Shown here: positions 5,233-43,105 of the stretch, one piece after another | Layout of the letters: each line of letters opens with the position of its first letter | Numbering within the stretch: position 1 is the first letter of the stretch | Assembly (NCBI GenBank): GCA_013180625.2 | Contig: SNVD02004742.1 | Location: 124,001-188,000, forward strand | Source: Boswellia sacra | Taxonomy: Eukaryota > Streptophyta > Magnoliopsida > Sapindales > Burseraceae | Direction: 5' to 3' | DNA: 64,000 nucleotides | Notes under the pieces: generated by a model | The model's database searches: none | What the model was told of the DNA's origin: nothing | The model's input: the letters and a program-made list of their open reading frames with translations, nothing else | Position numbers and translations under genes: made by a program

Positions 5233-5864
5233 TTAGACATGGAGCGTCAAATCCAATTTACACTTTTTGTTTTGTCCCTCTAACCAATTAGTTTGAGTTA
5301 TTGGTGGGTCAGGTTCATACTCAACTGCTTGTAATTTGTTAAGTAATTCATTAGCAGTAGTGGCAGAAACAAGGATTTGTCGCGTCGAATGTGGGATAAA
5401 ATTTTGTTCTGTAGCTGCATCAACAAAACGTATCAAAGGATCAAAAAATTTTTTAAAATTCAATTTGATGGAGATTCAGTTAGGCCCAAGAGGCAGTTTG
5501 AAAAATTCCTTCAAAAGTACCAAAACCACCTATTAGAGCAGGCAGCCAAATTAATAAGCATATATACCATGCGTTAATGCATAGAGGAGACTTGTAACTC
5601 CTGCCTAACTATGTTTCCAATGATGCTTTCTACAATTAAAGCACTTGGAATAACACCTAAAACTTGACTGCCTCCTATGAGTGTAGCTATTGACACGTAA
5701 CCTATTAACTCGAGGCTACCTCCCCCATAAACCAGATGAATCTTTCATTTAGGTACAAGCCTACCAAGATAATTTGCTACTTCTATAAACTCTTCACTTT
5801 TTTAAGGTTAAGATCCACAGAATACACATATCTTTTGGATTCGACGTTTTGAGGTTTTCTTCAT
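5233..5864 (-). pseudogene. LOG-like cytokinin-activating enzyme pseudogene (family A, minus-strand copy)
   Basis: This is a decayed copy of the LOG-like gene at 20453-21104. The start codon is kept at 5864 (M-K-K-T-S-K-R-R-I-Q). Stops appear shortly after, in the stretch matching the 'CGSRPGKSEEF' region, and the middle is shortened and disordered. The C-terminal quarter stays open (5233-5463) and reads as the LOG C-terminal helix region, with F-I-P-H-S-(T)R and ILVSAT. It lies in the same position relative to the LTR as in the other copies, so it belongs to the retrotransposon. It is not functional. Confidence 0.8.
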
Positions 5865-6180: not shown

Positions 6181-6300
6181 GGCTTAAACACCTTCTATGA
6201 GAGTTTTCTTTTAAACTTGCAAACAAGGTCGTTTTGAGTTAGATTCCTGAGATTGTAATGTGCCTGCTTTTCTCGAAATTGTGTCTATAATTTCAAAATT

Positions 6301-12123: not shown

Positions 12124-12572
12124 TGTTTACCCAGGTATGGCAACTCAAGAGGGGGGATGAATTGGGTTTTTATTTATAAAAACGGATTTAGAAAACTTTT
12201 CTTGAAAGATCAAAATTATTTAACTTTTTCTTTGAGAATAAAGGTGAAGAAGATCAAAAAATGGAATGCAATCAAGAGAATAGCAATAAAGAACAATCAC
12301 AAGTGCAAGTAAATGTAAGAGTATAGGGAAAGAGAGATTGCAAACTCAATTTACGTGGTTTGGTAAACCTTGCCTACGTCCACGGACTCCTAGCTCCATG
12401 AGCTAGGCTTTCACTAAGTTGTAGAAATCTTTACAACTTGCTTGATGAACAACCTCACCAAAACTTTTTCCTTCAACCCTTGATAACACCACACCAAGAG
12501 TTCTTCTTGATGAACAACCTCACCAAGGCAACTTTCTTCAACTCTTGATAACACCACACTAAGAGTTCTTCT
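12124..12572 (+). mobile_element. Truncated LTR of family C
   Basis: It starts TGTTTACCCAGGTATGGCAA and follows the start of the solo LTR at 26333 almost base for base, through the GAGGGGGGATGAATTGGG block and two 65-bp repeats. It breaks off at 12572, where family A LTR1 starts. The missing portion (more than 1.2 kb of a 1.76-kb LTR) is not seen elsewhere in the window. Confidence 0.8.
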
Positions 12573-13954
12573 TGATGAACACTTAAATATGTATGTTTAA
12601 TAAAAGCTTAGTTCATCATATTGCATTAATAGTGTTATTAAATTCCTCAACTTAAGCATATTTGTAGTCTTTGCATCTTTGGAATTAACTTCCTCTTAAT
12701 TTTGGTTTTGTTATAGGTTCGGTAAAATGGGCATAACTCTCTATTTGTAGATCAGAATGGTGCAATTCTTAATATTTTGGAAAGATGATTCAATTGTCTA
12801 CAAGATTGCATTTCATAAGCATCATCAAATTCGGGCTCTTAGTGGACCAAAATTGGGCTTGAAGTGAACCCATCTACAGTCTCAGCCCAGTCTGACCAGG
12901 CCTCAGTATTTGGACCGTATCTCTCAAAATACGTATCCAAATTGTGCAAATCAATATGTTCTAGAAAGCTGAGAGAAATATCTACAACTTTCATGAAGAC
13001 ATGTGATTAAAATTCTCAACTTTCAATGTCAAAATTGATGGTCAAAGTCGGTCCCTAATGATCCCAATTGTCAACGATATTTACAACTAATATTTGACAA
13101 TTATGCCCTTGTAATTTGACAAGTTTGCCCCTGGATGTATCTATAAATAGAGGTGCCTTGTGACCCATTAGGGCATCTGGGCCTTGGCTGGAACATTTTG
13201 GCTTTGGCTAGGATCTTGTATTGTGTTTTGTGTGTTTATGTTATTAATGAATTTCCTTTTTCTTGCATTTTATTTCTTTCTATTATAATGTTCTTCTAAT
13301 TTCTCTTTTGCTAAGGTGAAAGGGTGAAACCCTTGATATGAGAATAAGGATTCTCTAACCCTCAATATGTGCTTAATAATCTTAATCTTATAATGTTTAT
13401 TCAATATGATTTATATTTAATTTCTTAATCAATCTTGACAGCACTTGTAAAGTGGAGGTCTTGATCCATTGTCGACAATCCTTGGCACATCAAATGCTTG
13501 GATCCTTTCTAGATGATGTATGGTTCTTCCTTACCGACACGAATCTAGTTAGGAACCTTGATTTGTTGTAGACATATGGTGATTGGCACATTGGATTCTT
13601 GAACCCATTTACAAGAAGTGGTATAAATATTGGTAATGAAACAAATATAATTCATATAACTAAAATGGGCTAATTATCCTTATTCGAAATATCAAGGGTG
13701 AATCCTCTAACCTTAGCTTTCATTATTATTGTGTTGATTTCTCTTGTGTGATTCTCATTTATTGTTTACAAACTTGTTCTTATTTATATTTATTGATATT
13801 ATCTTATCATCTCCTTGAATCATTCATATCGTATTTGCTTAGCTTATAATTTGTAGCGCTAAAATCTCTTTCCTCGTGGATTGACCCCGGTCTTACCGGT
13901 TTTATTACTTTGACACTCCTATACTTGGGAGACAATCCTTTTTCGGATGTGTCA
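12573..13954 (+). mobile_element. Family A Athila-like LTR1 (5' LTR)
   Basis: The boundaries are TGATGAACAC... and ...CGGATGTGTCA. It has a TATA box CTATAAATAGAGG at about 13141-13153. It matches LTR2 closely, differing mainly by a block of about 97 bases present only in LTR2 (about 23650-23765). The high similarity suggests a relatively young insertion. The 5 bases before it (CTTCT) do not match those after LTR3, so no TSD supports its left edge. Confidence 0.9.
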
Positions 13955-14044
13955 AGTTTTTGGGCCAGAGAAGGTAAAAATTGGCGTGCAAAATTGTAAG
14001 TATTCTCTTTTCTCATCTTAGATCTAAATTTTTTATTTTTTTGT
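13955..14044 (+). promoter_or_regulatory. Degenerate primer binding site region and leader
   Basis: Right after the LTR comes AAGTTTTTGGGCCAGAGAAGG. Athila-type elements normally have a TTTTTGGCGCC-type primer site here. This copy keeps the first part and then diverges, probably through a small internal deletion, so priming is likely lost. A T-rich leader follows up to the gag region. Confidence 0.5.
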
Positions 14045-15608
14045 GTGTTCATCTTTTCCTCTCTTTTCTTCTCTTTTTCTTGCATGAAAATTTGGTCACG
14101 AACATCTAGTGGTAGACTTGTTAGAAAAACATCATCTTCCTTAGAAAACATGGCCAACAATCATGAGGAAATATTCACGGATGAAGGGGACAACCGTTCG
14201 CAACAAAATGATCAAAACCAACGAAGAACCCTCAAAGACTACATGAATCCGGTCAGGACTAGTGCACCATCTTGTGTAGTTTCTCCTCCAGATTCAATCC
14301 ATTTCAATTTCAAACCAAGTTTTGTTCGACTTCTACCCACTTTTCATGGCCTTGACATGGAGAACCCATATTCACACTTGAAACTCTTTGAAGAGGTATG
14401 TAGCTCCTACACTGACCCAAATTGTAGCATAAACACCATTAGATTAAAGCTTTTTCCTTTTTCTTTAAAAGATAAAGCTAGAGCATGGCTACAAAATTTG
14501 AGGTCAAATTCCATCAGTTCATGGGATGAGATGAAACAACAATTTTTGGAAAAAATTTTTCCCACCCATAGAACAAATTCCCTTAAAAGACAAATTTCTG
14601 ATTTCTCTCGAAAACAAGGGGAAACCCTTTACCAATATTGGGATAGGTATAAGGAACTACTTAATACCTGTCCTTGCCATGGTTTTGAGACTTGGAGAGT
14701 AGTTACACACTTCTATGAAGGGTTAACAGCTCAAGATAGACAACTAGTGGAATTAATGTGTAATGGAGAATTTAAAGAAAAAGATCCTGAGGAAACACTT
14801 GACTTCCTAGATTCCTTAGCAGAAAAGGCACAAAATTGGGACACTGCTGGCACCTATGAGGTACCAAGCAAGGCCCAAACCTCGACATCCAATAGAGGTA
14901 TTTACAACCTTAGGGAAGACCATGACCTTCAAGCCAAATATGCATCCCTAGCTAGAAAAAGTTGAAGCTTTAGAAATGAAAAAGAGTGGTCAATTGAATT
15001 CTATTCAAGAAAATGTCTGTAATATTTGTGATGACAATGACAATTCTACTGATGATTGCCCAACTTTGCCTGCCTTTAGGGAATGTCTCCATGAGCAAGC
15101 CGATGCCTTGAACACTTTCAAAAGGCCAAATCACAATCCATATTCACAGACCTATAATCCTGGTTGGAGAAATCATCCAAATTTTAGTTGGAGAAATAAT
15201 AATCATGCACAATCTTCACAAGCCCCTTTTCAAACACAACAAAAATTTCAAAATTCTCATGATCATGCATATGCTCCTCCTCCTAGGAATGACCTTGAAG
15301 AAACATTGCATTCATTCATTACAAAGCAAGAGACTTTCCATAGTCAAACTGCTCAAACATTAGCCAATTTGTCAGAAATTCTTGCAAAATTTGCATCTAC
15401 ATTTAGCATCCAAGAGAAGGGAAACTTTCCTTCTCAAACATTGCAAAACCCCAAAGATCAATCTAACGCAAATGTAGGGAGTTCAAGTAACCATTATTTT
15501 GACCAAGCCAAGTCAGCCATGACCCTTCGCAATGGTAAGGTCATTGAAAAACACATTCCTGACCCTTGTGAGAAAGAAGAAGAATCGATCTCTAAAGCGC
15601 AGGAATAG
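14045..15608 (+). pseudogene. gag: Family A gag (capsid/nucleocapsid), frameshifted
   Basis: The open frame 14045-14965 reads as a retrotransposon gag. The likely start is the ATG at 14150, since the residues before it resemble leader. Conserved gag features include FKPSFVRLLPTFHG, the helix ending AWLQNLRSNSISSWDEM, and QGETLYQYWDRYKELLNTCP. A one-base expansion of an A run just before 14965 shifts the frame. The protein resumes at 14976-15608 with a zinc-knuckle-like CNICDDNDNSTDDCP and a low-complexity Asn/Gln region, then meets a TAG at 15606-15608. Gag packages the element RNA into virus-like particles. The shape fits the Athila clade. Confidence 0.85.
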
Positions 15609-16345
15609 GTTGCCAAACCAATACCTAGTGAAGAGGAAACCAAATCCTCATCTGTGCCTCCATTTCCTCAAGCATTAGCCACACAAAAGAAGCCAACTCA
15701 CAATTCTGCAATCTTTGAAATTTTCAAACAGGTAAAGGTCAACATTCCCTTGCTTGATGTGATCAAACAGGTACCTTCTTATGCAAAATTTTTTAAAGAC
15801 TTGTGCACTGTGAAAAGAAAACTAAATGTGAAAAAGAAGGCATTTCTAGCCGAGCAAGTAAGTGCTATTCTTCAAAACAATAATACAGTGAAATACAAGG
15901 ATCCAGGTTGTCCTACAATTTCATGTGTTATTGGAGAGCATAAAATTGAACAAGCTTTACTTGATCTTAGTGCTAGTGTGAATTTGCTTCCATATTCGGT
16001 TTTTCAGAAACTCAATTTAGGTGAGTTAAAACCGACTTCTGTGACTCTTTTGCTTGCTGATAGATCAATTAAAGTACCAAGAGAGTAGTAGAAGATGTGT
16101 TAGTTCAAGTCGATAAATTCATTTACCCAGTGGATTTTATTGTCTTGGACACACAACCAGTGGAAGTATGTAATTCAATTCTTGTCATTTTAGGGCGTCC
16201 ATTTCTAGCTACCTCTAATGCTTTGATTAATTGCAGGAATGGAGTCATGAAGCTATCATTTGGGAACATGACATTAGAACTTAATGTTTTTAATATGTGC
16301 AAACAACCAAATGAAGAAGAATATGAAGTTGATGAAGCAATGTAA
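15609..16345 (+). pseudogene. pro: Family A aspartic protease region, broken
   Basis: After the TAG at 15606 the frame stays open to 16088. It contains the Athila-type block before the protease (CTVKRKLNVKKKAFLAEQVS) and the active-site segment ALLDLSASVNLLPYSVFQ. Athila proteases usually have D-L-G-A-S at this point; here the glycine is serine, which should impair catalysis. A one-base deletion near 16083 creates tandem stops. The protease frame then resumes at 16097-16345 (FIVLDTQPVE, ILGRPFLATSNALINCRNG). Confidence 0.8.
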
Positions 16346-17400
16346 TTGAATCTATTGTGGACGTCGATCCAAACAGGGAGTTCTTGGCTGACCCTTTGGG
16401 AAACTTCTCTAGTAGAATTCATTAAATCAGCTGGAACTAGAGTCCTGATCTTTCTGATATATGGCTCTTTAATTGGATTGGTGCCCACAAGTTGATTGAA
16501 AAAGGCTCAAAATCAAGATTTGAAGAATTGGGGCAAATGAATGAAAGCAAGGAAGATGAAGCTCCCAAGCGAGAATTGAAGCCCTTACCTGAAGGACTGA
16601 AATATGCATATCTTGGGGAGAATCAGACATATCCGGTGGTAATTTCTTCATCCCTCACATGCAAGCAACAAGGTAAGTTGATAGAAGTGCTTAAAAGGCA
16701 TAAAAATGCAATTGGGTGGACTTTAGAAGATATAAAAGGCATTAACCCTTTAATTTGGACACATAGAATACATTTAGAGGAAAATGCCAAAACATCTCAA
16801 CAACCTCAAAGGAGATTAAATCCACAAATGAAAGAGGTCAGTAGGGCTGAAGTTCTCAAACTACTTGATGTGGGAATTATCTATCCTATTTCTGATAGTA
16901 AATGGGTAAGCACTACACAAGTAGTACCTAAAAAATCTGGCATTACAGTTGTTAAAAATGAAAAGGGGGAATCATTGCCAACTCGTGTCTCATATAGTTG
17001 GAGTATGTGCATTGATTATAGAAAATTAAATGCTGTCACTAGAAAAGACCATTTTCCTTTACCTTTCCTTGACCAAATTCTTGAAAGAGTAGCAGGACAC
17101 CCCCTTCTACTCTTTCTTGAAGATACTCAGGCTACTATCAAATCCCCATTGCACTTGAGAGACCAAGAAAAGACCAAATTCCACGTGCCCCTTTGGCACT
17201 TTGCATTTAGGAGATGCCCTTTTTGGATTTGTAATGCCCAGTCTCACTTTTCAAAGATGCATGTTAAGCATTTTCAGTGACATGGTTTGAGCATTGTTTT
17301 AGAATTTTTCACATGATGATTTAACTGTCTTTGGAAACTCTTTTGATAATTGTCTTGAAAACTTAGAAAAAGTCCTAAAAGTGTGTAGGAAAAGGTCTTA
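16346..17400 (+). pseudogene. pol (RT): Family A reverse transcriptase, broken
   Basis: 16492-17280 is one open frame that starts with the pol linker and enters RT, with VVPKKSGITVVKNEKGE and MCIDYRKLNAVTRKDHFPLP (about 17008-17067). Past about 17100 the frame carries several small indels, so the core reads as nonsense although scattered RT motifs are visible in neighbouring frames. The catalytic box near 17305-17335 reads [10 protein letters not shown], where a bulky residue and Met normally precede the two aspartates. Conserved RT thumb sequence resumes with [19 protein letters not shown] at about 17400. The copy cannot encode active RT. Confidence 0.85.
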
Positions 17401-18934
17401 TTTGAATTGGGAAAAATGTCATTATATGGTCACTTCGGGAATTGTCTTAGGTCATGTGGTGTCTTCTAAAGGAATTGAAGTGGACAAAGCAAAAGTGGAA
17501 TTAATTTCCCATTTACCTCCACCGAAAACAGTTAAAGAGGTCCGTTCATTCTTAGAGCATGCTGGATTTTATAGGAGGTTCATAAGAAATTTCAGTGCTA
17601 TATCTAAACCTCTTTGTAACCTCTTAATAAAATATACTTCCTTTGAATGGACTCAAGAATGTCAAAATGCCTTTGATACACTAATTGGACTTTTAACAAT
17701 TGCTCCAATTATGCAATCTCCTGATTGGTCCTTGCCTTTTGAATTGATGTGTGATGCAAGTGACTATGCCGTTGGTGCTGTCTTAGGACAAAGAAAAGAA
17801 GGTAAGCCTTATGTAATATACTATGCAAGTAGGACTTTAAACGATGCACAAATGAATGACACAACAACTGAGAAAGAACTACTTGCAGTAGTATTTGCAT
17901 TGGACAAATTTCGATCTTATTTAATTGGCTCTCCAACAATTGTTTACACTGATCATGCAGCTGTGAGATATTTAATGACTAAACAGGATGCAAAACCTAG
18001 ATTGATACGGTGGATCTTATTGCTCCAAGAATTCAACATCACAATAAAGGATAAGAAAGGAGCCGAAAATGTCGTTGCTGATCATCTTTCAAGACTAACG
18101 ACAGAGACATTAATTGAAACTTCACCTATCAATGATTCTTTTCATGATGAATTTTTATTTTCCGTTGCTACTGTACCTTGGTTTGCTAACATTGTAAATT
18201 TTCTTGCAACAGGGAAAATGCCACCTCATTGGAATGCTCAAGACAAAAGAAAATTTTTAACCGAGGTGAAAATTTTTTACTGGGATGATCCGTATCTTTT
18301 CAAATATTATCCGGATCAAATAATAAGAAGATGCATACCCGACAATGAGGTAAGTAGTGTCATTAACTTTTGTCATTCTGATGCATGTGGAGGACATTTT
18401 TCATCTAGAAAAACAGCTGCTAAAATCTTGCAATGTGGATTTTATTGGCCCACTTTATTTAAAGATGCACATGCATTTTGCAAAACGTGTGAAAATTGTC
18501 AAAAATTGGGATCCATTTTAAAAAGAAACATGATGCCTTTGAATCCCATTCTTCTTGTTGAAATCTTTGATTGTTGGGGTATTGATTTTATGGGACCCTT
18601 TCCACCGTCATTTGGTCTTGTGTACATCCTTGTTGCAGTGGACTATGTTTCAAAATGGGTCGAGGCAATTCCATGTCGAAACAATGATCACAACACAGTT
18701 GTCAAATTCTTGAAGGAGAATATCTTGAGTAGATTTGGAATTCCTCGAGCCATTATTAGTGATGGGGGTACACATTTTTGTAACAAACTATTTGAAACTT
18801 TAATGAAGAAATATGGAATAACCCATAAAATTTTTACACCTTATCAACCACAAACAAGTAGACAAGTTGAATTAGCTAATAAGGAGATAAAACAGATCTT
18901 AGAAAAAAAGGTTAACCCAAGTCGTAAAGATTGA
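17381..18934 (+). pseudogene. pol (RH-INT): Family A RT thumb, RNase H and integrase core
   Basis: This 517-codon frame contains the RT C-terminus ([19 protein letters not shown]), RNase H ([51 protein letters not shown]), the integrase zinc domain (H..H with CKTCENC) and the integrase core. The catalytic residues are visible as D in [11 protein letters not shown] in IISDGGTHF and E in QVELANKE. It ends at a single TGA (18932-18934) in the conserved stretch just before [13 protein letters not shown], where a tryptophan is expected; the frame continues beyond. Domain order RT-RH-INT places it in Ty3/gypsy. Confidence 0.9.
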
Positions 18935-19462
18935 TCTTTAAGACTTAATGATGCACTTTGGGCTTATCGAACTGCTTTTAAAACATCATTGGGAATGTCT
19001 CCTTATAGACTAGTTTATGGAAAACCTTGTCACTTGCCTGTGGAAATTGAGCATAAAGCTTATTGGGCCATTAAAACATTCAACATAAATTTGAATGATG
19101 CTTGCAAGTTACGTAAACTCCAACTGAGTGAACTTGAAGAAATCAGGAATGAGGCTTATGAAAATTCTAAAATCTACAAAGAAAAAATGAAGGTTTTTCA
19201 TGACAAATCCATTGTTAGAAAATATTTTGAACCTTCACAAAAATTTCTTTTGTATGATTCAAGATTGCATTTGTTTCCTGGTAAACTTCGGTCTCGTTGG
19301 ACTGGGCCTTTCATTGTAAAAAATGTTTTCCCTCATGGAGCAGTTGAAATTGAGAACCCAAAGAATGGTAATGTGTTTAAAGTTAATGGACAACGGTTAA
19401 AACCATTCTTTAAAAATTTTGCCCAAAACGAAGAGTCCATTGCTTTAATCGATCCTTTTTAA
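18935..19462 (+). pseudogene. pol (INT): Family A integrase C-terminal part
   Basis: It is in frame with the preceding block after one stop codon. It contains [20 protein letters not shown], the [19 protein letters not shown] stretch typical of Athila-like integrases, and a C-terminal SH3-like end ([20 protein letters not shown]). It ends naturally at 19462. No chromodomain is seen, as expected for the non-chromoviral Athila/Tat clade. Confidence 0.9.
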
Positions 19463-19588
19463 GGATTGATTTTTCCCGGTCAAGTGGCGGATACGGTACT
19501 CCGTGACGTTTAAAGTCGGTTTTTCAGTTCCCTAAAAACTGTTGCTCACCTTGCATCCATTTTCTTTTCTTCTCTCTCATTTTTTCAC
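19463..19588 (+). other. Spacer between integrase and the zinc-finger ORF
   Basis: A 126-base noncoding spacer ending in a pyrimidine-rich leader (TTCTTTTCTTCTCTCTC) just before the next ATG. No TATA box is obvious. Translation of the next ORF might depend on splicing, reinitiation or another transcript. Confidence 0.4.
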
Positions 19589-20137
19589 ATGGATACCATT
19601 CTCTCAAAATTGCACAAACATTTTCCCTCTCTTCCTCAAAATGATTTGCTTAAAATTTATAAAGCTCGTGCAGAAAGACTAAGGTTGTTGATGCGTAAGG
19701 GTATTCCTGCTGATTTAAGATGGTTAATTGAAGCCAAGGTTCGATTCTCTTGTGAGTTTTCAGATAATCTTGTTTCCCATATGCCAGGTTTGGGAAAAAG
19801 CTCTTATGCCAAAAAGCGAAGAGCGAAAAGATTACAAGTTTGTCCCAGATGTGCAAGATGGACTTGTAACCAGCGTTGCCGCTCCTTGGGATATTTGTCT
19901 AACAATCGAGAGGATAAACTACAGTTCATAAAGAATGGACTGAGTAAGGAGTCTTTGGATAATATCCGAGTGACTTTTGAGACGCATTCTTGTGGACTTG
20001 TACAACGTGAAATTTTTAATTTGTGGACACAATTCCGAGATGAGCAGGAACGCTATAGTCTTGGGAATCTGAGTCAAAACGACCCTCTTTGCCAGTTTAT
20101 AAGAAAACTGGATGGGAAGCATATACCCAACTCATAG
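19589..20137 (+). CDS. Basic zinc-finger protein resembling flexivirus nucleic-acid-binding proteins
   Basis: An intact 182-codon ORF starting MDTILSKLHK. Residues 30-52 form a helical stretch (RKGIPADLRWLIEAKV). A G-x-S-x-Y-A segment and a basic block, K75-KRRAKR, follow, and then a compact finger with Cys85, Cys88, Cys93 and Cys97 (CPRCARWTCNQRC). The order helix, G-x-S-x-YA, basic cluster, Cys finger is what I know from the nucleic-acid-binding proteins of carlaviruses and relatives (Pfam Viral_NABP), which bind nucleic acid and in some viruses suppress silencing. The 85-residue tail after the finger is longer than in those viruses and unrecognised. It sits where Athila elements often carry an env-like ORF. 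It has no stops in an element whose gag and pol are broken. Parts of the same ORF exist in two other copies (24205-24397 and 6180-6300). Homology is judged by eye and needs a profile search; an unrelated Cys4 protein is the alternative. Confidence 0.55.
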   Translation: MDTILSKLHKHFPSLPQNDLLKIYKARAERLRLLMRKGIPADLRWLIEAKVRFSCEFSDNLVSHMPGLGKSSYAKKRRAKRLQVCPRCARWTCNQRCRSLGYLSNNREDKLQFIKNGLSKESLDNIRVTFETHSCGLVQREIFNLWTQFRDEQERYSLGNLSQNDPLCQFIRKLDGKHIPNS

Positions 20138-20452
20138 AAGGTGTTTAAGCCGTTTCTGGACGTAAAACCAGAGGAAGATGTGAGCCAAAGTCACAACTAC
20201 CTGTACATATGCATGCGTGCCATCATTTTTGAATTTTAATACCTCATAGCTGTCATTTTTGAATTTGTATCTTTTGTTTGACTTATGGTGTCTTATTTCA
20301 TCATCTTTTGAATTTTTATGCATTATTGTCAAATTTTTCAAAAAACAACCGAGCTACCTAGATAGATATCATCATTAGCATACCTTTTTGCACTTCATAA
20401 ATACCACATCTCTTGTTCTCTTCTTCACACATAGTTAGGGAGTTGCATAGAC
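20138..20452 (+). promoter_or_regulatory. Conserved leader and putative internal promoter before the LOG-like gene
   Basis: A 315-base noncoding stretch that is well kept in all three family A internal regions. It contains GGACGTAAAA, a GTGAGCCAAAGTCAC near-palindrome (about 20179-20193), GATAGATATCATCATTAG, and a TATA-like CATAAATAC at 20396-20404, about 50 bases before the ATG. The equivalent TATA-like box is CTATAAATTG in the copy near 24670. A TATA box plus a short C/T-rich leader directly before an ORF suggests a second, internal promoter. This is inference from layout. Confidence 0.4.
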
Positions 20453-21104
20453 ATGGAGGGAACTTCAAAACGTCGAATCCAAAGGATATGTGTATTATGT
20501 GGATCCCGACCGGGTAAAAGTGAGGAGTTTATAGAAGTAGCAAATTACCTTGGTAGACTACTGGCTGAAAGAAAGATTCATGTGGTTTATGGGGGAGGTA
20601 GCCTCGGGTTAATGGGTTGCGTATCAACAGCTGCACATGTAGGAGGTAGTCAAGTGTTAGGAGTTATTCCTAAAGCTTTGGCTGTAGAAAGCATTGTTGG
20701 AAAAACGGTTGGGAAGGAGTTACAGGTCTCCTCTATGCATGAACGCATGGCACATATGCTCATCAATTCAGATGCCTTTATTGCTTTACCAGGTGGCTTT
20801 GGCACTCTTGAAGAAATTTTTCAAATTGCCTCTTGGGCCCAACTGAATCTCCATCAAAAACCCATAGGTTTGTTGAATGTTAAAAATTTCTTTGATCCTT
20901 TGATAAGTTTTGTTGATGCAGCTGTGGAACAAAAATTTTATCCCTCATTCAGCGAGAAAGATCCTTGTTTCTGCCACTTCTGCTGGTGAGTTACTTGACA
21001 AATTACAAGAAGTTGAGTATGAACCTGACCCAGCTAGTACTCAAATTAATTGGGCAGGAGGGCAAAACAAAAAGTGCAAATTGGATCTGAATCTCCGTTT
21101 ATAA
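20453..21104 (+). pseudogene. LOG-like: Intronless LOG-like cytokinin riboside 5'-monophosphate phosphoribohydrolase, one frameshift
   Basis: The frame starting MEGTSKRRIQ carries the LOG family hallmarks: CVLCGSRPGK (residues 13-22), YGGGSLGLMG (46-55), MHERMAHM with the catalytic-type Arg98, and LPGGFGTLEE (112-121) with Glu121, the PGGxGTxxE signature. LOG enzymes release free-base cytokinin from its nucleotide in the plant cytosol or nucleus. The Lys usually next to the Arg is Met here. An extra A in an A run near 20930-20936 shifts the frame, so 20453-20989 ends in an unrelated tail. The true C-terminus (IPHSARKILVSATSAGELL) continues in the next frame to 21104. Plant LOG genes normally have several introns; this copy has none, which indicates capture of cDNA. 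It follows a conserved leader and lies between pol and the 3' LTR. Two more copies occur in family A. Confidence 0.88.
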
Positions 21105-22436
21105 TTTTTTCTCTTGTCCTTTATTTTATTTTATTTTAGCATGTTATTTTATGAGTCTTTCAGGTCATCTCCCTTGAATAACAGAAGCTTCAGGTAATGT
21201 CTCTTATACTTTATCTCTCTACATTTAAACATTGAGGACAATGTTTCATTTGGTTGGGGGGAAGGATAGTAGACATAAGTGTGTCTTGAAATTTTATTTT
21301 TTTCATGCAAAAAAAAAAAAAAGCGAGTTAGTAATTAGATTTAGAGTGCGGTGTAAGGAGTTCAAATCCTCTTGAGACGCATTCTGGGTCAGGAATGGCA
21401 GAGTATGGAGGGCCAGTTTGAACTCTTGAAACCCATTCTAACCAATTTTTCATTTTATTTTGATCTTATGAACTCATTTTAGCTAACTTGATATTATTTA
21501 GACTTGATTTTTGAATTTTATAACAAGGAAGTCTTATTCATTTCACTTTGAATTATTCAAATCTATGAACTCTCACAACCTTATCATTTAAAAATTGTGT
21601 GCTTATGTACTCATTAAACAAGTATTCATGAACATTTCTTTGCACACACACACATACCTTGATGCATGATTGTGGGTGGCAAAATGAAATGTTGTAATAT
21701 TTAAGTTCTTTTGTTTTGTTTAGGATAACAACACAAAGGAAGGGGAAAGTTAAAAAAAAAAGTGAAAAAAAAGGAAAAAAAAAGAAGAAGAGAGCAATTG
21801 TGGATAAAGTTTGGTCTCGTAGCCTCCTTAATTCGAGCAATTAAGCCCGAGGGGTGCCACAACACCTAATACCCTAAGACCAACTGGTTTGGGAGCTATT
21901 GGCCCAAAGCTCGCTACATGGATTAAGGAGAAAGCTTAATGGGATTGAACATTGCACTATCCACAAGTTTCTAAGAAAAAATAAAGCATCGGAAACCCGA
22001 GTCGTTAAGCTCGTAGGGGTGTCTTAACACCTAATGCCTTAAGGCCAACTGGTCTGGGAGTCATTAGCCTAAGGCTCGCTACATGGGTTAAAGATGCATT
22101 CTTTCAAAAAAAAAACACATATATATATAAAATAAAAGAATGCCCCCTACCTAAAGTTGTTAGCCTTAACAAATATTAGAACCGATATGGCTTCTTTCTA
22201 ATAAGCCCATAGTCATGTGTTAACTGAGCACAAAAAGGAGGTTTATTGATATCTTGACTGAAGGGTACATGAGTCATAAATAATAATAATAATAATAATG
22301 ATAATAATAATAATTGGTTGAGAGTTTGTTTATTTGGATAAAATCAAGGAGAGTGCAATAATGACCACCTTGGATGAAAAATTCTATAAATCACTTCTAA
22401 ATAATAACGCTTTAATTGCTAGGGACTAGCAATAAG
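21105..22436 (+). other. Family A 3' noncoding region
   Basis: It contains the AACATTGAGGACAATGTTTC segment (about 21227) and the GGTTGGGGGGAAGG purine tract (about 21252) known from Athila-like elements, A-rich runs, two diverged direct repeat modules (21850-22095), and a TAA microsatellite at 22276-22314. It is collinear with 25377-28448 (minus the family C insertion) and, reversed, with 3944-5232. No ORF is supported. Confidence 0.75.
21850..22095 (+). repeat. Two diverged direct repeats near the 3' end of family A
   Basis: A module reading AACACCTAAT, ACCCTAAGACCAACTGGT, GGGAGC..ATTGGCCC, GCTCGCTACATGGATTAA occurs at about 21860-21930 and again, with about 20% change, at about 22028-22093. 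The spacing is roughly 165 bases. The pair is present in all three internal regions (about 26098-26330 plus, 4300-4560 minus). Function is unknown; it may be a packaging or RNA-structure element. Confidence 0.65.
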
Positions 22437-22450
22437 CTAGTTGGGGGGTG
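22437..22450 (+). promoter_or_regulatory. Polypurine tract of family A
   Basis: GCTAGTTGGGGGGTG lies directly before the TGATGAACAC start of LTR2, the normal place for plus-strand priming. The same tract precedes LTR3 (GGTTGGGGAGTG, 28437-28448). Confidence 0.8.
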
Positions 22451-23929
22451 TGATGAACACTTAATATGCATGTTTAATAAGAGTTTAGCTTCATCATATT
22501 GCATTAATAGTGTCATTAAATTCCTCAACTTAAGCATATTTGTAGCATTTGCATCTTTAGAATTAATTCCTCTTAATTTTGTTTTGTTACAGGTTCGGTA
22601 AAATGGGCATAACTCTCTATTTATAGATCAGAATGGTGCAATTCTTAATGTTTTGAAAAGCTGATTCAATTGTCTACAAGATTGCATCACAAGCATCATC
22701 AAATTCGGGCTCTTAGTGGACCAAAATTGGGCTTGAAGTGAACCCATCTACAGTCTCGGCCTAGTCTGACCAGGCCTCAGTATTTGGACCGTATCTCTCA
22801 AAATACGTATCCAAATTGTGCAAATCAATATGTTCTAGAAAGCTGAGAGAAATATCTACAACTTTCATGAAGACATGTGATTAAAATTCACAACATTTCG
22901 ATGTCAAAATTGATGGTCAAAGTCGGTGCCTAATGATCCCAATTGTCAAAGATATTTACAACTAATATTTGACAATTATGCCCTTGTAATTTGACAAGTT
23001 TGCCCCTGGATGTATCTATAAATAGAGGTGCCTTGTGACCCATTAGGGCATCTTGGCCTTGGCTGGAACATTTTGGCTTTGGCTAGGATCTTGTATTGTG
23101 TTTTGTGTGTTTATGTTATTAATGAATTTCCTTTTTCTTGCATTTTATTTTCTTTCTATTATAATGTTCTTCTAATTTCTCTTTTGCTAAGGTGAAAGGG
23201 TGAAACCCTTGATATGAGAATAAGGATTCTCTAACCCTTAATATGTGCTTAATAATCTTAATCTTATAATGTTTATTCAATATGATTTATATTTAATTTC
23301 TTAATCAATCTTGACACCACTCGTAAAGTGGAGGTCTTGATCCATTGTCGACAATCCTTGGCACATCAAATGCTTGGATCCTTTCTAGATGATGTATGGT
23401 TCTTCCTTACCGACACAAATCTAGTTAGGAACCTTGATTTGTTGTAGACATATGATGATTGGCACATTGGATGCTTGAACCCATTTACAAGAGTGGTATA
23501 AATGTTGGTAATGAAACAAATATAATTCATATAATTAAAATGGGCTAATTATCCTTATTTGAAATATCAAGGGCGGATCCCCTAACCTTAGCCTTCATTG
23601 TTATTGTGTTAATTCCTTTGTATTTTAATTATTCTATTGTTTATGAACTTTTTATTTTATTTACTATGGTAGGTTCTACCACCTTATGAAATTGTTCTTT
23701 AATTTAATTATTCTTTTTGTTTTATATTTGAATGGTCGGTAATACCACCTACCATCTTACATACTTGTTGATATTATCATGTCACCTCTTTGAATCATCC
23801 ATATCACATTTGTTTAGCTTATAATTTGTAACGCTTAAATCTCCTTCCTCATGGATCGACCTCGGTCTTACCGGGTTTATTACTTCGACACTCCTATACT
23901 TGGGAGACAATCCTTTTTCGGATGTGTCA
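22451..23929 (+). mobile_element. Family A LTR2 (shared middle LTR)
   Basis: It runs TGATGAACAC...GGATGTGTCA, 1479 bases, with a TATA box at about 23015-23027 (CTATAAATAGAGG). It serves as the 3' LTR of the first internal region and the 5' LTR of the second, shortened one. No TSD is seen at either side, as expected for a recombination product. Confidence 0.9.
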
Positions 23930-24204
23930 GTAGACTATGTTCAAAAAGATTTGAGGCAATTCCGTATCAGAAGAATGATCACAAAACAGTTATCAAATTC
24001 TTGAAAGAGAATATCTTGTGTAGATTTGGAATTCCTCAAGCCATTATTAGTGATGGGGGTACATATTTTTGTAACAAATCATTTGAAACTCTAACGAAGA
24101 AATATGGAATAACCAATAAAGTTTCTACACCTTATCATCCCCAAACAAGTGGACAAGTTGAATTAGCTAATAGGAAGATAAAACAAATCTTAGAATGGAT
24201 TGAT
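23930..24204 (+). pseudogene. pol (INT): Integrase core fragment (second internal region)
   Basis: It is fused straight to the end of LTR2. It begins inside the integrase core, just after the first catalytic Asp region, and contains the second catalytic Asp (IISDGGTYF) and the Glu (QVELANRK). It matches 18637-18900. It then jumps to sequence matching about 19940, so gag, most of pol and the zinc-finger N-terminus are deleted in this copy. Confidence 0.9.
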
Positions 24205-24397
24205 TAAGGGGTCTGTGGATAATATCCAAGTGACTTTTGCAACACATTCTTGTGAAATTGTGCAACGTGAAATTTAGAAATTATGGACACAATTTTGACA
24301 ATAGTAGGCACATTACAGTCTTAGGAATCTGACTAAAAAAGATGTTATTTGCCAGTTTATAAGAAAACTGGATGGGAAGCATATCCCCAACTCGTAG
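24205..24397 (+). pseudogene. C-terminal fragment of the zinc-finger ORF (second copy)
   Basis: It matches 19945-20137, the last 64 codons of the zinc-finger ORF, with stop codons inside. The finger itself is lost. The end is kept in the same frame (..DGKHIPNS, stop), so the boundary with the following leader is the same as in the full copy. Confidence 0.8.
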
Positions 24398-24725
24398 AAG
24401 GTGTTTAAGCCGTTTCTGGACGTAAAAATAGATAAAGATGTGAGCTACAATCACAACTACCTGTACATATGCATATGTGCTATCATTTTTGAATTTTTTT
24501 GCCTTATAGTTGTCATTTTTGAATTTACATCTTTCGGTTGACCTATGCATTTATGTTATCTTATTTCTATCATATTTTTTGAATTTTTATGCTTTATTGT
24601 CAAATTTTTCCAACAAACAGTCTAGCTACCTATATAGATATCATCATTAGAATATCTTTCTGCACTCTATAAATTGACATCTCTTGTTCTTTACTTCACA
24701 CATATAGTTAGAGAGTTGCATAGAC
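24398..24725 (+). promoter_or_regulatory. Leader and putative internal promoter (second copy)
   Basis: Collinear with 20138-20452. The TATA-like box reads CTCTATAAATTGAC at about 24665-24678, a better TATA than in the first copy. ACCTATATAGATATCATC and the CATCTCTTGTTCTTTACTTC leader are also kept. Confidence 0.4.
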
Positions 24726-25376
24726 AGGGAGGGAACCTTAAAATGTCGAATCCAAAAGATATGTATTTTCTTTGGATCTCAACCCAGAAAAAGTGAAGAG
24801 TTTGTAGCAGTAGCAAATTATCTTAACAGGCTATTAGCTGAAATAAAGATTCATGTGGTTTATAGGAGAGGTAGCCTCGGGCTAATGGGTTGTGTGTCAA
24901 CAACTGCACTCTTAGGAGGCAGTCAAGTTTTAGGTGTTATTCCTAAAGTTTTGGCTATAAAAAGTATCATTGGAAAAATAGTTGGGCAGGAGTTACAGGT
25001 CTCCTCTATGCATGAACGCATGGCATATATGCTTATCAATTCATATGCTTTTATTGCTTTACTAGGTGACTTTGGTACTCTCTAATGAATTTTTCAAATT
25101 GCCTCTTGGGCCCAACTGAATCTCCATCAAAAACCCATAGGTTTATTGAATGTTAAAAATTTCTTTGATCCTTTGATACGTTTTGTTGATGTAGCTGTAG
25201 AACAGAATTTTATCCTACGTTTGACGTGACAAACCCTTGTTTCTGCCACTACTACTAATGAATTACTTGATAAATTACAAGCAGTCGAGTAAGAACCTGA
25301 CCCAGTAATAACTCAAATTAATTGGTCAGGGGGACAAAATAAAAAGTGCAAATTGGATTTGACGCTCCGTTTGTAA
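24726..25376 (+). pseudogene. LOG-like: LOG-like pseudogene (second copy)
   Basis: Same position and length as the copy at 20453. The start codon is lost (AGG for ATG at 24726). An open stretch at 24855-25085 reads GSLGLMGCVSTTALLGGSQV and LQVSSMHERMAYMLINS. The PGG signature has decayed to L-L-G-D-F-G-T-L, followed by a stop. The C-terminus is present with further stops (CKLDLTLRL, stop at about 25374). It is non-functional and intronless. Confidence 0.85.
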
Positions 25377-26332
25377 TTTTTCTCGTCTTTTATTTTATTT
25401 GTAGCATTTTATTTTACATGTCTTTCAAGTCGTCTCTTTTGAATAATTGGAACTTCAGGTAATGTCTTCTATACTTTATCTCTGTACATTTAAACATTGA
25501 GGACAATGTTTCATTTGGTTAGGGGGGAAGAGTAATAGACACAAGTGTGTCTTATATTTTCTTCTTGCAAAAAAAAAAAAGGTAAGTTAGTAATTAGTTC
25601 AGAGTGCTGTGTAAGGAGTTCAAATCCATTTGAGACACATTCTAGGTTAGGAATGACAGAGTAAAGAGGGCCATTTTGAACTCTTGAAATCCAATTAATT
25701 AATCATTTTGTTTTGATTTTGCACTTTTGAAGACTCATTTTAGCTAACTTGATATTATTTAGTTTTTATTTTTGAATTCTATAACGAGGTTGTCTTATTC
25801 ACTTCACTTTGAATTATATGAACTCTCGTAACTTTGTCATTTAATAAATTGTTTGCTTATGTACTCATTAAGTAAGTATTCATGAACCTTTCTTCACACA
25901 CACACATACCTTGATGCATGATTGTGGGTTTCAAAATGAAATGTTATAATATTTGAGTTCTTTTGTTTTGTTTAGGATAACAACAAAAGGAGGGAAAAGT
26001 TAAAAAAGAAAAGTGAAAGCAAGAAAAAAAAAGCAATTATGGCTAAGTTTGGTCTCTTAGTCTCCTTAATTCGAGCAATTAAGCCTAACAGGTGCCTCAA
26101 CACCTAATACCCTAAGACCAACTGGTTTGGGAGCTATTGGCCCAAAGCTCATTACATGGATTAAGGAGAAAGCTTAAGAGGATTGAACATTGCACTATCC
26201 ATAAGTTTCTAAGCAAAAATAAAGCTTTGGCAACTCGAGTCATTAAGCTTGTAGGGGTGTCTTAAGACCTAATGCCCTAAGGCCAACTAGTCTGAGAGTC
26301 CTTAGCCTAAGGCTTGCTATATGGGTTAAAGA
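25377..26332 (+). other. Family A 3' noncoding region, second copy (first part)
   Basis: Collinear with 21105-22085, including the AACATTGAGGACAATGTTTC segment (about 25493) and both repeat modules. It is interrupted at 26333 by the family C solo LTR and continues at 28098. Confidence 0.8.
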
Positions 26333-26652
26333 TGTTGACCCAGGTATGGCAACCCAAGAGGGGGGGTGAATTGGGTTTTTATTTATAAAAACGGATTTAG
26401 AAAACTTTTCTTGAAAGATCAAAATTATTTAAATCTTTATTTAAGAACAAAGGTGAAGAAGATGAAAATAGAATGCAATCAAGAGAATGGCAATAAAGAA
26501 CAATCACAAGTGCAAGTAAATGTAAAGAGGATAGGGATAGAGAGAGTGCAAACTCGATGTACGTGGTTCGGCAAACCTTGCCTACGTCCACGGGCTCCTA
26601 GCTCCACGAGCTAAGCTTTCCACTAAGTTGTAGAAATCTTTACAACTTGCTT

Positions 26653-26870
26653 GATGAACAACCTCACCAAGACTTTTTCCTTCAACCCTTGATAACACCA
26701 CGCCAAGAGTTCTTCTTGATGAAAAACCTCACCAAGGCAACTTCCTTCAACTCTTGATAACACCACACCAAGAGTTCTTCTTGATGAACAACCTCGCCAA
26801 GGCAACTTTCTTCAACTCTTGATAACACCACACCAAGAGTTCTTCTCGATGAACAAACTCACCAAGGAAA
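26653..26870 (+). repeat. 65-bp tandem repeat inside the family C LTR
   Basis: The unit GATGAACAACCTCACCAAGG... begins at 26653, 26718, 26783 and 26848: three full copies at exactly 65-bp spacing and a partial fourth. The truncated LTR at 12124-12572 has the same unit at about 12448 and 12513. Confidence 0.9.
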
Positions 26871-27169
26871 GAGTTTTCTCAAGGATAACTTTTATCCTTT
26901 ACAAGAAGATCTCACTCTCACCACAATACAAGAACAAAGTAAATTTTTACAACAAAAGTACAACTCTCTTCAAAGAGTAGATAAAGAATATAAAAGCTCT
27001 CTAGACTTGATATTTCTCTTTTTTTTTTGCTTGATAAAATGCTTCCCTTGCACTACTTGAATGCATGGGAGAATGGCTCCTTTTATAGGCAAATGAGATG
27101 AACTTAATCAAGTGAAGACACCAACTCCAAATTTTCTGCCCACCATAAAAACCGTAATCTTGTCTGCCA

Positions 27170-27880
27170 TTTTTGTCAATGTTCCATTTGAAATTTGAAA
27201 ATCTGCAAAACATAAAAATTTTAACATTTGAATAAGCTTTCCAACACATCAAGAATCAAGTCATTTGGATATCTGTAGCTCAAGATATGGCCAAAACACC
27301 ATTCGGTGCTCATGTGACTTGATTTTTCTTTTTTGTGTCAGTCCACCAAATTGAATGATAATTCTGTCAGCCTTCTGTTTGAAATTTGAATTTATTCAAA
27401 ACATAAAAGATCTACATATTTGAATAAGATTTCCAAAACATTAAGAATCAAAGCATTTGGATATCTCTATCTTAAGATATGGCCAAAACACCATTCGGTG
27501 CTCATGTGAGTTGATTTTTCTTCTTTGTGTCAGTCCACCAAATTACATGTCAATTATGTCGGCCTTCTGTTTGAAATTTGAATTTTTTCAAAACATATGA
27601 AATGTTCTTCATTAAGTCATCTTTCTAATGCCGCAAGAATCAAGTCATTTTGATTTTTCTAGCTTAAGATATGTCCAAAGGAGTATTCGGTGCTCATGTC
27701 AGCTGCTTCCATTTATCTTTCAACTTACATTATGATTTGGACAACCTTGCACTTGAAATTTGAATTTCATTAAAACATATGAAATGTTATAAATTGAGTA
27801 AGCTTTCCAAAGGCTCAAGAATCACGTCATTTGGATATTTGTAGAGATATATATGACCAATTGATTGAACATTGCTCATG
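27170..27880 (+). repeat. About 191-bp diverged tandem repeat inside the family C LTR
   Basis: The blocks TTTGAAATTTGAA, AAGAATCAAGTCATTTGGAT and ATTCGGTGCTCATGT recur. The last one occurs at 27301, 27493 and 27684 (spacing 192 and 191), with a weaker fourth copy near 27870. Confidence 0.75.
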
Positions 27881-28097
27881 TGTCACATTCCTTGAGTCAA
27901 TCCTTGTTCTTAAACTTTGGTGCCTTTAACATGTAGTCTTCTCCTTAGCTTCAACACTTCATTTTAATAAGCCTCTTCTTAATTTTAAAATTATTTCAAT
28001 GATCTTACTCTTGCACATTAATAAACATGTTAGTAAATCTCAATTAATCAATGTGTATTGTTATCATCAAAATTATCATGTAGCCTTAGGGCTAACA

Positions 28098-28448
28098 AAA
28101 GATGCATTGTTTCAAAAAATATATATAACAATAAAAATAATAATCAATGAATGTCCCCTGCCTAAGGATGTTAGCTTTAACAAATATTAGAACTGATATG
28201 GCTTCTTTCTAAAAAGCCTGATAGTCATGTGTCGACTGATCACAAAAGGAAGGTTTGTTGATATCTTGAATGAGGGTATATGAGTCTTTTTAAAAAAAAG
28301 AAAAGAAAAAATTTGGTTGAAAGTTTGTTTATTTGGATAGAATCAAGAAGAGTGTAATAATGTCACCTTGGTTGTAAAATTCTATAAATCACTGCTAAAT
28401 AATAACGCTTTAATTGCTAAGGACTAGCAAGAAGCTGGTTGGGGAGTG
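28098..28448 (+). other. Family A 3' noncoding region, second copy (last part) and polypurine tract
   Basis: Continuation after the solo LTR; it matches 22100-22450 and ends in GGTTGGGGAGTG (polypurine tract). Confidence 0.8.
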
Positions 28449-30001
28449 CGATGAACACTTAAATATGTATGCTTAATAAGAGCTTAATTCATCATATTGC
28501 ATTAATAGTGTCATTAAATTCCTCAACTTAAGCATATTTGTAGTCTTTGCATCTTTTAAATTAGTTTTATCTTAATTTCAATTTTTATTTTAGGTTCGGT
28601 AAAATAGCCATAAATTTCTATTTATTTATCAGAATGGTGCAAATCTTAATTTTTTGAAAAGTTAATTAAATTACCTACAAGATCATATTGCACAAGCATC
28701 ATGAAATTCAGGCTCTTAGCAAGTAAAAAATGGGCTTGAAGTGAACCCATCTACAATTTTGGCCTAGTCTGACCATGCCTCCATATTTTGACCATATCTC
28801 TTGATATACGTATCCAAATCATATGAATTAATGTGGGACAAAGTTGAGAGAAATATCTACAACTTTAAAGAAGACATGTGATTAAAATTCTAAATAATTT
28901 GATGCCGAAATCGGTGGTCCATGTCGGTGCACATGATGATCCAAATTGTCAATAAGATATTTTACAATTGTCCCTTTGTAATTTGACGAGTTTTGCCTCT
29001 GAATGTATCTATAAATAAAGGTGCATTGTAGCCCATTAGAGCATCTTGGCTCTTGCTAGGATCTCTTAACATTGTGTTTTCTCTCTTGTGTTCTGTTCTT
29101 TTGATGTTATTAATAAATCATTTTCTTTTTGCAGTTTATTTTCTTTCTTGCTTAAAGTTTCACTAAATTCTCTCTTGCTAAGGTGAAAGGGTAAAACCCT
29201 TAGTATAAGAATAAGGATTTTCTAACCCTTGACATGTGCTTAATAATCATAATCTTGTGTTGTTTATTTTATATGATTTATATTTATTTTCTTAATCAAT
29301 CTTGACACCACTCGTAAAACGGAGTTATTGATCTATTGTAGACAATCCTTGGCACATTAAATGCTTGGATCCTTTCGAGATGCCGTATGGTTCTTCCTTA
29401 CCGACACAAGTCTAGTTAGGAACCTTGATCTGTTGTAGACATATGGTGATTGACACATTAGACACTTAAACCCATTTACAAGAAATGGTATAAATATTGA
29501 TAACGAAACAAATATAATTCATATAACTAAAATAAACTTAAATGACATACCTTTCTATTAGAACCTCCTTGATGTGTGGATTCCAATTGAGTTATAACTG
29601 GGTTGTCTATTCTTATTTGATATATCAAGGGCGGATCCCCTAACCTTAGCTTTCATCATTATTGCGTTAATTCCTTTTACTTGTGTATTTTAAGTATTTT
29701 TATTTATTGCTTATGAACTATTTCTTTCATTTGCTATGGTAGGTTTTACCTTCTATTTTCATGAATGGTTTTGCCACCTTTTGTTTTTATTTTACATTTG
29801 AATGGTTGGTAATACCGCCTGCCATCTTTACTTATATTTGTTGATATTATCTTGTCATTTCCTTGAATTATTCATACCATATTTCTCGTTCTATAGTTTG
29901 TACCGCTAAATCTCCTTCCTCATGGATCGACATCGATCTCATTAGGTTTATTATTTTGGCACTCCTATACTTGAGAGATAATCCTATTTTTGGATATGTC
30001 A
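28449..30001 (+). mobile_element. Family A LTR3 (terminal 3' LTR of the compound element)
   Basis: It starts CGATGAACACTT (the usual TG is CG) and ends TTGGATATGTCA. TATA box CTATAAATAAAGG at about 29010-29022. It is more diverged from LTR1 and LTR2 than those are from each other, so it belongs to an older insertion. Confidence 0.88.
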
Positions 30002-41200: not shown

Positions 41201-41559
41201 TCCGACCTTACTGGCAGCAAATCGATGACGACGTGCTTATTCTCCAGAGGTAGGCGGTTAGCTAGGTGTTAATCAACGTCTATTTGTAAGAGATGGGAGA
41301 TTTGAGTTAAGAGAAAAAAGGGGGTTAGGGCGTATAAGCTTTTTGCGCTAATTAGAAGAAAAGGGAAAATGGTGATTTGAATATCCCGCTAAATAGACAC
41401 ACGCCTATACAAGGAAAAGGCGTACGACTACATTGAGAAGGTGCACCCTTACTCCTCACAGGTATTTGAAAAATTTTCTTTTGCCTCCTAAAGTTTAACA
41501 AAGTGTTGCTTTGACCTTTTTGCAAGAAAGTCGTACCACAATCCAAGATGACATTAAAG

Positions 41560-42420: not shown

Positions 42421-42783
42421 ACAACCAAGGTCCCATAATTTTCCAACACTATGATAAGCCGCCAAGGCTTCAGTTAGACCACCAACGTCCAATCAATTGC
42501 CAAGACTTTGATCAGCTGTCGAGGCTTTAGTCAAACCATTAAGGTCTAATAAGTCGCCAAGACTCTATTAGTTGCCAAGACTTAGATCAGTTGTCAAGGC
42601 TTTAATCAGACTATTGATGTCCAATCAGTCACCAAGACTCTAATCAACCATCATGGCTCAAAGAGAAAATAAGTCTTCAAGTTGCAAAGTGTGCAAAGAA
42701 GGGGGTTTGGGCATCTAGCCTAGAGAAGGTTAAAAAAAAGGGTAAGAATTACTTTGTTGATTTTTGTGTTTCCACAAACCCTT

Positions 42784-43105
42784 CCAAAGTAGGGAGCAAA
42801 TTGTAGGCATTAAAATTTTTGCCTATGATTTGAGTCCCGACGACGAGCCGTGGTACCATTGTCAAAGATATTTGTCTCTCAGCCAAAGTTTATAAACTTC
42901 CAGAAAACCATCTAAAAAAACCAAAAAATAACCAAAAAACCAAAAAGGCGGGGAAAATGACAAGAAGAGGCCAGGTAGGTGCCAGAATCGGTAAAATAGG
43001 TTCACACTTGAGTAACCTAAAGAAGCCCATGGTGGAAGTTTCCAGACGCTGAAAACCACCCAAAAACCCTAAAAGCTACCTAGAGTAGGCGTGGCTCCTA
43101 GACAA
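42784..43105 (+). mobile_element. Polypurine tract and truncated Tat-like LTR in array unit 1
   Basis: CCAAAGTAGGGAGCAAAT is followed by TGTAGGCATTAAAATTTTTG, the LTR start, at 42802. Only 304 bases of LTR are kept before the CAAGG junction to the next unit. The same module recurs at about 45250-45554, 48663-48967, 49926-50218 and 52363-52666. Confidence 0.8.

Follow-up and report, generated by a model that had tools for sequence, protein, structure and literature searches.

A plant-type LOG gene and a virus-like ORF are conserved together in an Athila-type retrotransposon family of Boswellia sacra

An abundant Athila-type Ty3/gypsy retrotransposon family in Boswellia sacra carries an intronless, plant-type LONELY GUY (LOG) gene as a standing accessory gene, on the sense strand between the integrase and the 3′ LTR. 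An upstream open reading frame (ORF) of the flexivirus nucleic-acid-binding type accompanies it in the copies checked, and comparison of the element subfamilies shows that both ORFs bear signs of purifying selection. Since selection protects both, it is suggested that the element uses the LOG and the virus-like gene on its host. The novelty lies in this two-gene module, not in the capture of LOG. The window referred to below is the whole stretch of DNA that was analysed, 64,000 nucleotides in length.

Structure and lineage of the element in the window

The element copy studied in the window, together with the remnants of two further copies, comprised the following features (window positions):

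12573..13954, +, 5′ LTR, TGATGAAC...TGTGTCA, aligned to the 3′ LTR with both ends read
13955..13990, +, primer-binding-site region, damaged in this copy (L009 has TGGCGCCGTTGCCGGGGA, L011 nearly so)
14000..14965, +, gag ORF (PF03732)
14952..17280, +, rest of gag and protease/RT region in broken frames, assigned by position, without Pfam match
17303..18934, +, RNase H and integrase core (PF17917, PF17921, PF00665)
18935..19462, +, C-terminal part of integrase, frame unchanged past one stop, assigned by position, without Pfam match
19589..20137, +, extra ORF 1, virus-like, 182 aa (PF05515, PF01623), with a basic region and a Cys cluster
20412..20437, +, pyrimidine-rich stretch ending in AG directly 5′ of the LOG ATG, putative splice acceptor (weak inference)
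20453..20989, +, extra ORF 2, LOG, by sequence a type-I cytokinin riboside 5′-monophosphate phosphoribohydrolase, 178 aa
20990..21104, +, remaining usual LOG C-terminus in another frame, with KLDLNLRL (EAR-like) tail
22441..22450, +, polypurine-tract-like TTGGGGGGTG
22451..23929, +, 3′ LTR
24194..24394, +, extra ORF 1 remnant, second copy
24726..25376, +, LOG pseudogene, second copy
5233..5864, −, LOG pseudogene, third copy
6192..6299, −, extra ORF 1 remnant, third copy

An earlier reading of this DNA from its letters (the sequence-only reading) had placed an intronless LOG gene between pol and the 3′ LTR. This arrangement was borne out, with the LOG lying uninterrupted between the integrase (17303–19462) and the 3′ LTR (22451–23929). 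The virus-like ORF just upstream of LOG, at 19589–20137, was absent from that reading.

Gag, RNase H followed by integrase, and TG...CA LTRs were all present, identifying a Ty3/gypsy element by features that are common to the group and not specific to Athila. The primer-binding site TGGCGCCGTTGCCGGGGA, which we take to be the Athila-type site matching plant tRNA-Asp, was exact in L009, one base shorter in L011 and damaged in the window copy, these being the copies in which the end of the 5′ LTR was recognised. The Athila ORF-1 domain PF03078 gave no match among the 8 and 7 window ORFs scanned. This domain occurs in 16% of Athila elements (PMC6317226), so it is not required for membership. With PF03078 not found, the label 'Athila-type' comes from the primer site and not from an RT tree; judged by that site, the LOG carrier would be an Athila-type Ty3/gypsy element.

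The two LTRs of the window copy differed by a K2P distance of 0.055 over 1376 aligned columns, which corresponds to about 2–4 million years at rates of 1.3e-8 and 7e-9. With its gag-pol frames broken and its primer-binding site damaged, the copy looks dead. No target-site duplication was found at the window copy, the flanks having no matching 5 bases. At 12573–30001, three LTRs follow one another head to tail, along with a full internal region and a truncated one; as the flanking 5 bases do not match, this stretch is probably a rearranged compound element.

Identity and state of the LOG ORF

The ORF at 20453–20989 contained YGGGSLGLMG (residues 46–55), MHER with Arg98, and LPGGFGTLEE (residues 112–121); PGGxGTxxE, the catalytic Arg and GGGS..G are signature motifs of LOG enzymes. 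It matched Pfam PF03641 (E 8.8e-35, 120.2 bits against a cut-off of 27) and NCBIfam TIGR00730 (E 5.4e-46, 156.6 bits against a cut-off of 96.35), and the best solved structures were Arabidopsis At2g37210 (E 2.3e-53), then At5g11950. Matches of this strength exceed what chance would produce, and the LOG signatures that had been read from the letters were thus confirmed. Because the subfamily cut-off of TIGR00730 was exceeded, the ORF was called LOG by sequence, that is, a type-I LOG with predicted enzyme activity. The equivalog NF058542 (CtkRMPhLog) gave 106.9 bits, below its cut-off of 300 bits, with the shortened 178-aa frame alone as query. Foldseek, which also weighs sequence, returned plant and bacterial LOGs as the top matches (E 6.9e-14, rmsd 6.1) of a low-confidence LOG model (pLDDT 54). 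Across five aligned element copies the signatures were invariant, with one change immediately after GGGSL in L028.

The gene had been taken to extend over 20453–21104. LOG-like sequence does run throughout this interval, but not in a single frame: the window LOG leaves the usual C-terminal frame after about residue 162, and beyond 20989 the C-terminus continues in another frame to 21104. The same shortened end occurred at three other loci, L002 and L003 (178 aa) and L004 (177 aa), and seven further places aligned through residue 178 among the 150 scored matches of the genome LOG search. Being common to several copies, the shortened LOG may be an inherited variant and not the decay of a single copy. 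The two degraded LOG copies pointed out earlier were both found, the one at 24726–25376 (+) having lost its start codon and gained four in-frame stops, the other at 5864–5233 (−) being disrupted by stops and a frame change.

LOG is a family-wide gene

The genome searched comprised 638.6 Mb in 7431 contigs. For LOG, the best 150 of 14137 loose candidates were scored, all with E below 5e-99, and 135 of these 150 had no inner stops (counted by hand from the table). For the upstream ORF, the best 150 of 13735 candidates were scored, 125 of them without inner stops (also a hand count), and for integrase the best 80 of 20814. Intactness is overstated by these counts because the scored copies are the best-scoring ones, and scoring only the best 150 or 80 among thousands of candidates provides no estimate of family copy number.

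Twenty LOG copies were sampled as every fifth row in the first 100 of the 150, one near a contig end being replaced. The upstream ORF was seen in 18 of them, with just its last 27 residues in L011, L021 and L022; the two copies without it, L018 and L027, both run out at the edge of a contig. Of the 20, 16 had a LOG ORF of 209 aa or more, and in 14 its length was exactly 216 aa. When the 20 best copies were picked by the upstream ORF (one being the window copy), all had LOG downstream, at least 209 aa long in nine and exactly 216 aa in seven. Integrase was used to choose 10 copies within rows 1–39 of the 80 scored; nine had LOG at the predicted place, and the tenth stretch (L087) falls on another repeat. 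Whether chosen by upstream ORF or by integrase, nearly all copies carried LOG, in agreement with the earlier proposal that the gene had spread with the element.

A second subfamily was represented by 14 of the 20 loci of one LOG search, the other six being host genes. Its identity to the window copy was 71% for LOG (L065) and 70–73% for the upstream ORF. Among the 14, the LOG ORF reached 209 aa or more only in L065, where it has 216 aa, and this copy lacked the RT core and integrase. In the upstream flanks of L065 (L072) and L055 (L084), the upstream ORF came after an apparent protease and RT start, and neither of these two flanks matched integrase before that ORF. Given the missing integrase match, the second subfamily may be non-autonomous, although LOG is still open in L065.

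The upstream ORF resembles flexivirus proteins

The window upstream ORF scored above the curated cut-offs of two viral families, Viral_NABP PF05515 (32.9 bits, cut-off 23) and Carla_C4 PF01623 (28.9 bits, cut-off 20.9). Both families were above cut-off in five of five copies scanned, in which the PF05515 matches covered 53–88 residues and reached at most 40.4 bits beyond the window. None of nine controls (eight shuffles and one reversal) matched either family. A search of the genome with PF05515 gave a best stretch of 47.7 bits (E 5.2e-10), and none of 14 control genomes matched. On C617, C759, C5966 and C6249, a PF05515 match lay about 1.2 kb before a same-strand LOG C-terminus; this pairing was made by eye and unsystematically, and other PF05515 places may lack LOG.

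The typical core of the ORF, YAKKRRAKRLQVC..C..W.CN..CRS, consists of a basic stretch and a four-Cys cluster, with Cys 85, 93 and 97 in 10 of 10 rows and Cys 88 in nine. The AlphaFold model (pLDDT 47) was too poor for a fold search. The ORF is termed virus-like, and not a virus gene, since it sits in an LTR retrotransposon and not at the 3′ end of a flexivirus RNA. Viral cysteine-rich proteins are reported to suppress silencing and to determine pathogenicity, and that of chrysanthemum virus B to be a transcription factor that causes hyperplasia (PMC12172455). Among the top-ranked results from open-licence papers, no report of such a viral-type protein in a retrotransposon was found.

Both ORFs show signs of purifying selection

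For LOG, 25 first-subfamily rows (23 distinct places, L034 repeating L014 and L036 repeating L016) were compared with L065, giving dS of 1.0–1.3. In 24 of the 25 rows dN was 0.22–0.27 and dN/dS 0.16–0.24; L038, with its out-of-frame C-terminus, gave 0.39 and 0.30. A dN/dS of about 0.2 at a dS of about 1.1 between subfamilies, a deep comparison that leans on L065 as the one intact second-subfamily copy, indicates purifying selection on LOG and fits the earlier view of the gene as a lasting part of the element. Pairs inside the first subfamily (300, repeated places included) gave a ratio of means of 0.34. The upstream ORF, compared from residues 49–60 to 182, the C-terminal two thirds, gave dN/dS of 0.11–0.20 in all 15 pairs between 5 and 3 copies. 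When one pair per ORF was read in the two wrong frames as a control, the ratios were 0.95–1.74. As decay after insertion raises such ratios, constraint in active lineages is probably at least as strong.

Introns, trees and the origin of LOG

Four host LOG genes (C1714, C3518, C3764 and C5605) were split at at least five places where the element LOG is continuous, in line with the earlier statement that plant LOG genes have introns. The splits, approximate because taken from tblastn pieces, fell after GGRHV(I/L)G, MPREV, IALPG and (D/R)KPV and before the last exon, with exon 1 seen in C3764 alone. One host LOG gene was present on two contigs (C5605 and C5975; L063 and L064), as haplotypes or a recent duplicate.

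In the larger of two trees, element and plant rows grouped together (100/99), apart from 12 bacterial LOGs (11 loci and 5zbj); within this group, five element rows formed one clade (100/99), and the six plant rows formed a second (98/97). The smaller tree, with seven element rows, again joined these in one clade (100/99), but its sole bacterial row fell between plants and element, so the choice of outgroup matters; el2_L056 and el_L010, present there, were left out of the larger tree. The stem of the element clade measured 0.77 changes per site in the smaller tree and 0.55 in the larger. The LOG of L014 was 48% identical to a Pseudomonas LOG and 48–52% to plant LOGs, and the 11 bacterial loci were 36–45% identical.

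One element clade beside the plant clade points to a single capture of a plant-type LOG, either old or fast-evolving. The donor was not among the sampled plants, the element LOG lying outside their clade (98/97). Independent host origins of the LOG copies are disfavoured by the single element clade. The phylogeny, with its one clade at 100/99, the presence of LOG across the family and the intron comparison together support what the sequence-only reading had proposed, a single captured LOG mRNA that spread with the element.

C-terminal tail and a candidate splice acceptor

An LDL(N/T)L tail was found in 60 of 65 rows, a few places being counted twice. Typical LOG ends were NKKCKLDLNLRL in the first subfamily and NKRRKLDLTLHL in the second. 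Four of the five misses were frame-broken, and the fifth (L017) had a Leu changed to Trp. The tail is out of frame in the window copy, and several copies share the shortened end without it. Host LOG tails, DISR (two), DIAR and VVIDT, were without LxLxL. Between L014 and L065, silent differences occurred at three of the four tail Leu codons. A random protein end would carry LxLxL in about 0.4% of cases, by rough estimate. LxLxL is the EAR motif that binds TOPLESS (PMC10942257). Since it is kept across subfamilies, the tail is worth a test, but no more.

A stretch ending in AG preceded the LOG ATG in 13 of 13 copies viewed (CACACATAG, or TTACACAAG in the second subfamily). It follows a pyrimidine-rich tract, weaker in the second subfamily, whose pyrimidine richness is equalled by 2.3% of the element's 33-base stretches. 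A splice acceptor before the LOG ATG is possible on these grounds.

Relation to known systems

Two Athila-like elements similar to LOGL4 were reportedly described by Steinbauerova et al. in 2011, and most extra ORFs of plant Ty3/gypsy elements in that survey are said to resemble no known gene. The element LOG shares its fold and catalytic motifs with plant LOGs such as Arabidopsis At2g37210 and At5g11950 (48–55% identity), but it is intronless, borne by a mobile element and divergent at its C-terminus, which mostly ends in KLDLNLRL or KLDLTLHL. Alvarado-Marchena et al. 2022 (PMC9289625) describe a YgdH/LOG domain in LTR elements from two Citrus species and, without their filter, from poplar too, a result in line with Steinbauerova et al. 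2011, which they cite. LOG had thus been reported in Ty3/gypsy elements of plants before, and the capture described in the sequence-only reading is not new. The available part of the Citrus and Populus report gives the LOG domain only (PMC9289625), whereas the companion virus-like ORF, selection, introns and origin, and the tail are treated here. The constancy of LOG, its constraint, its single origin, its tail and its virus-like partner are apparently new, as far as the literature was searched.

The upstream ORF is like the carlavirus and allexivirus cysteine-rich proteins (PF01623, PF05515) in its basic stretch followed by a Cys cluster and in its profile scores above cut-off. It differs in residing in a retrotransposon, in its length of 182 aa and in a C-terminal part that lies outside the profile matches of the window copy. 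Phalaenopsis offers a parallel: Ty3/gypsy elements there hold, as a fixed accessory gene of the lineage, an ORF for an AlkB-type RNA demethylase that was active in vitro (PMC9289625); the enzyme is a different one, and activity was demonstrated there while the LOG here is known from its sequence. With EAR repressors such as RABBIT EARS (PMC10942257), the element LOG shares the LxLxL motif, but it is no DNA-binding repressor, and TOPLESS binding is putative.

A possible role of the two-gene module and alternative explanations

We consider it probable that the two genes form an accessory module that acts on the host cell, through cytokinin release on the one side and nucleic-acid binding or interference with silencing on the other; we infer activity and benefit to the element from the conservation of the genes. 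LOG would have been gained once, long ago, when reverse transcription switched to the spliced mRNA of a plant LOG as template, and its product would still convert cytokinin riboside 5′-monophosphates to free cytokinin. Both extra ORFs might be expressed from spliced or subgenomic element RNA, and their products would act together in trans on the cell expressing the element. Cytokinin could hold cells in a dividing or meristematic state, so that new insertions can reach the germ line. Like its viral relatives, the basic zinc-finger-like protein would bind nucleic acid and either weaken silencing or alter transcription in the host. Binding to TOPLESS may come in addition, through the LDLNLRL tail. 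A more specific version, which we regard as doubtful though worth stating, is a virus-like host-manipulation module: the nucleic-acid-binding protein would interfere with silencing or with the transcription of the host, and the LOG with its EAR-like tail would keep cells dividing or bring about TOPLESS repression, so enlarging the population of cells that pass on copies, with genes having passed between flexiviruses and retrotransposons.

It is very unlikely that LOG and the upstream ORF are captured passengers, neutral and hitchhiking on a successful element. The window copies are broken or shortened and in 13 of 14 second-subfamily loci no LOG ORF reaches 209 aa, as a passenger would allow; yet dN/dS is about 0.2 at dS near or above 1, against wrong-frame ratios of about 1 or more, both subfamilies share the 216-aa length of LOG, and that exact length recurs in 7 of the 20 copies that were selected through the upstream ORF instead of LOG. 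The pairwise dN/dS ratios disfavour neutrality. LOG might instead be kept for something other than cytokinin, acting for example on other nucleotide 5′-monophosphates or immune nucleotides, or serving through its EAR-like tail as a non-enzymatic nuclear scaffold. The new C-terminal tail would suit this, as would the length of the stem that leads to the element clade (0.77 and 0.55 changes per site), but PGGxGTxEE and Arg98 are invariant in the five-row alignment, and the motifs are also kept in a six-row alignment except for one Leu beside the Glu pair; we consider such a role unlikely.

The origin of each gene is open to a different reading as well. If LOG had come from a bacterium or another non-plant source, its missing introns would say nothing about an mRNA. 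The near-equal identity of the L014 LOG to Pseudomonas and plant LOGs and its position outside the six sampled plant LOGs are compatible with such a source, whereas the element and plant clade (100/99) excludes all 12 bacterial LOGs and the 11 bacterial loci are no more than 45% identical. The tree with 12 bacterial rows thus disfavours a bacterial origin, and we hold any non-plant source to be highly improbable. For the upstream ORF, convergence on a basic stretch and a Cys cluster, without homology to the viral proteins, is somewhat less remote but still rather unlikely. The core is indeed basic and Cys-rich, the reversed control matched another Cys-rich family at 5.6e-4 (under that family's cut-off), and the viral contigs scanned contained no relative of LOG or of the upstream ORF. 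Against this, the two viral families exceed their curated cut-offs in every copy scanned, PF05515 over 53 residues or more, and the genome matches extend down to E 5.2e-10.

If the module works as proposed, a retrotransposon would be steering a plant hormone, as gall-forming bacteria do, and the virus-like ORF would connect accessory proteins of RNA viruses to LTR elements. With two extra ORFs that have recognisable relatives and measurable constraint, the function of such ORFs becomes testable.

Other repeats in the window

Another repeat is inserted into the second copy at 26334–28098, with AAAGATG on both flanks, and a piece 93% identical to it (12124–12572) adjoins the 5′ LTR of the first copy. 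A piece at 62288–63594 (−) resembles the LTR of the LOG-carrying family. Positions 40700–52700 are occupied by a tandem array with a unit of about 2449 bp, some spacings being shorter (963 and 1246).
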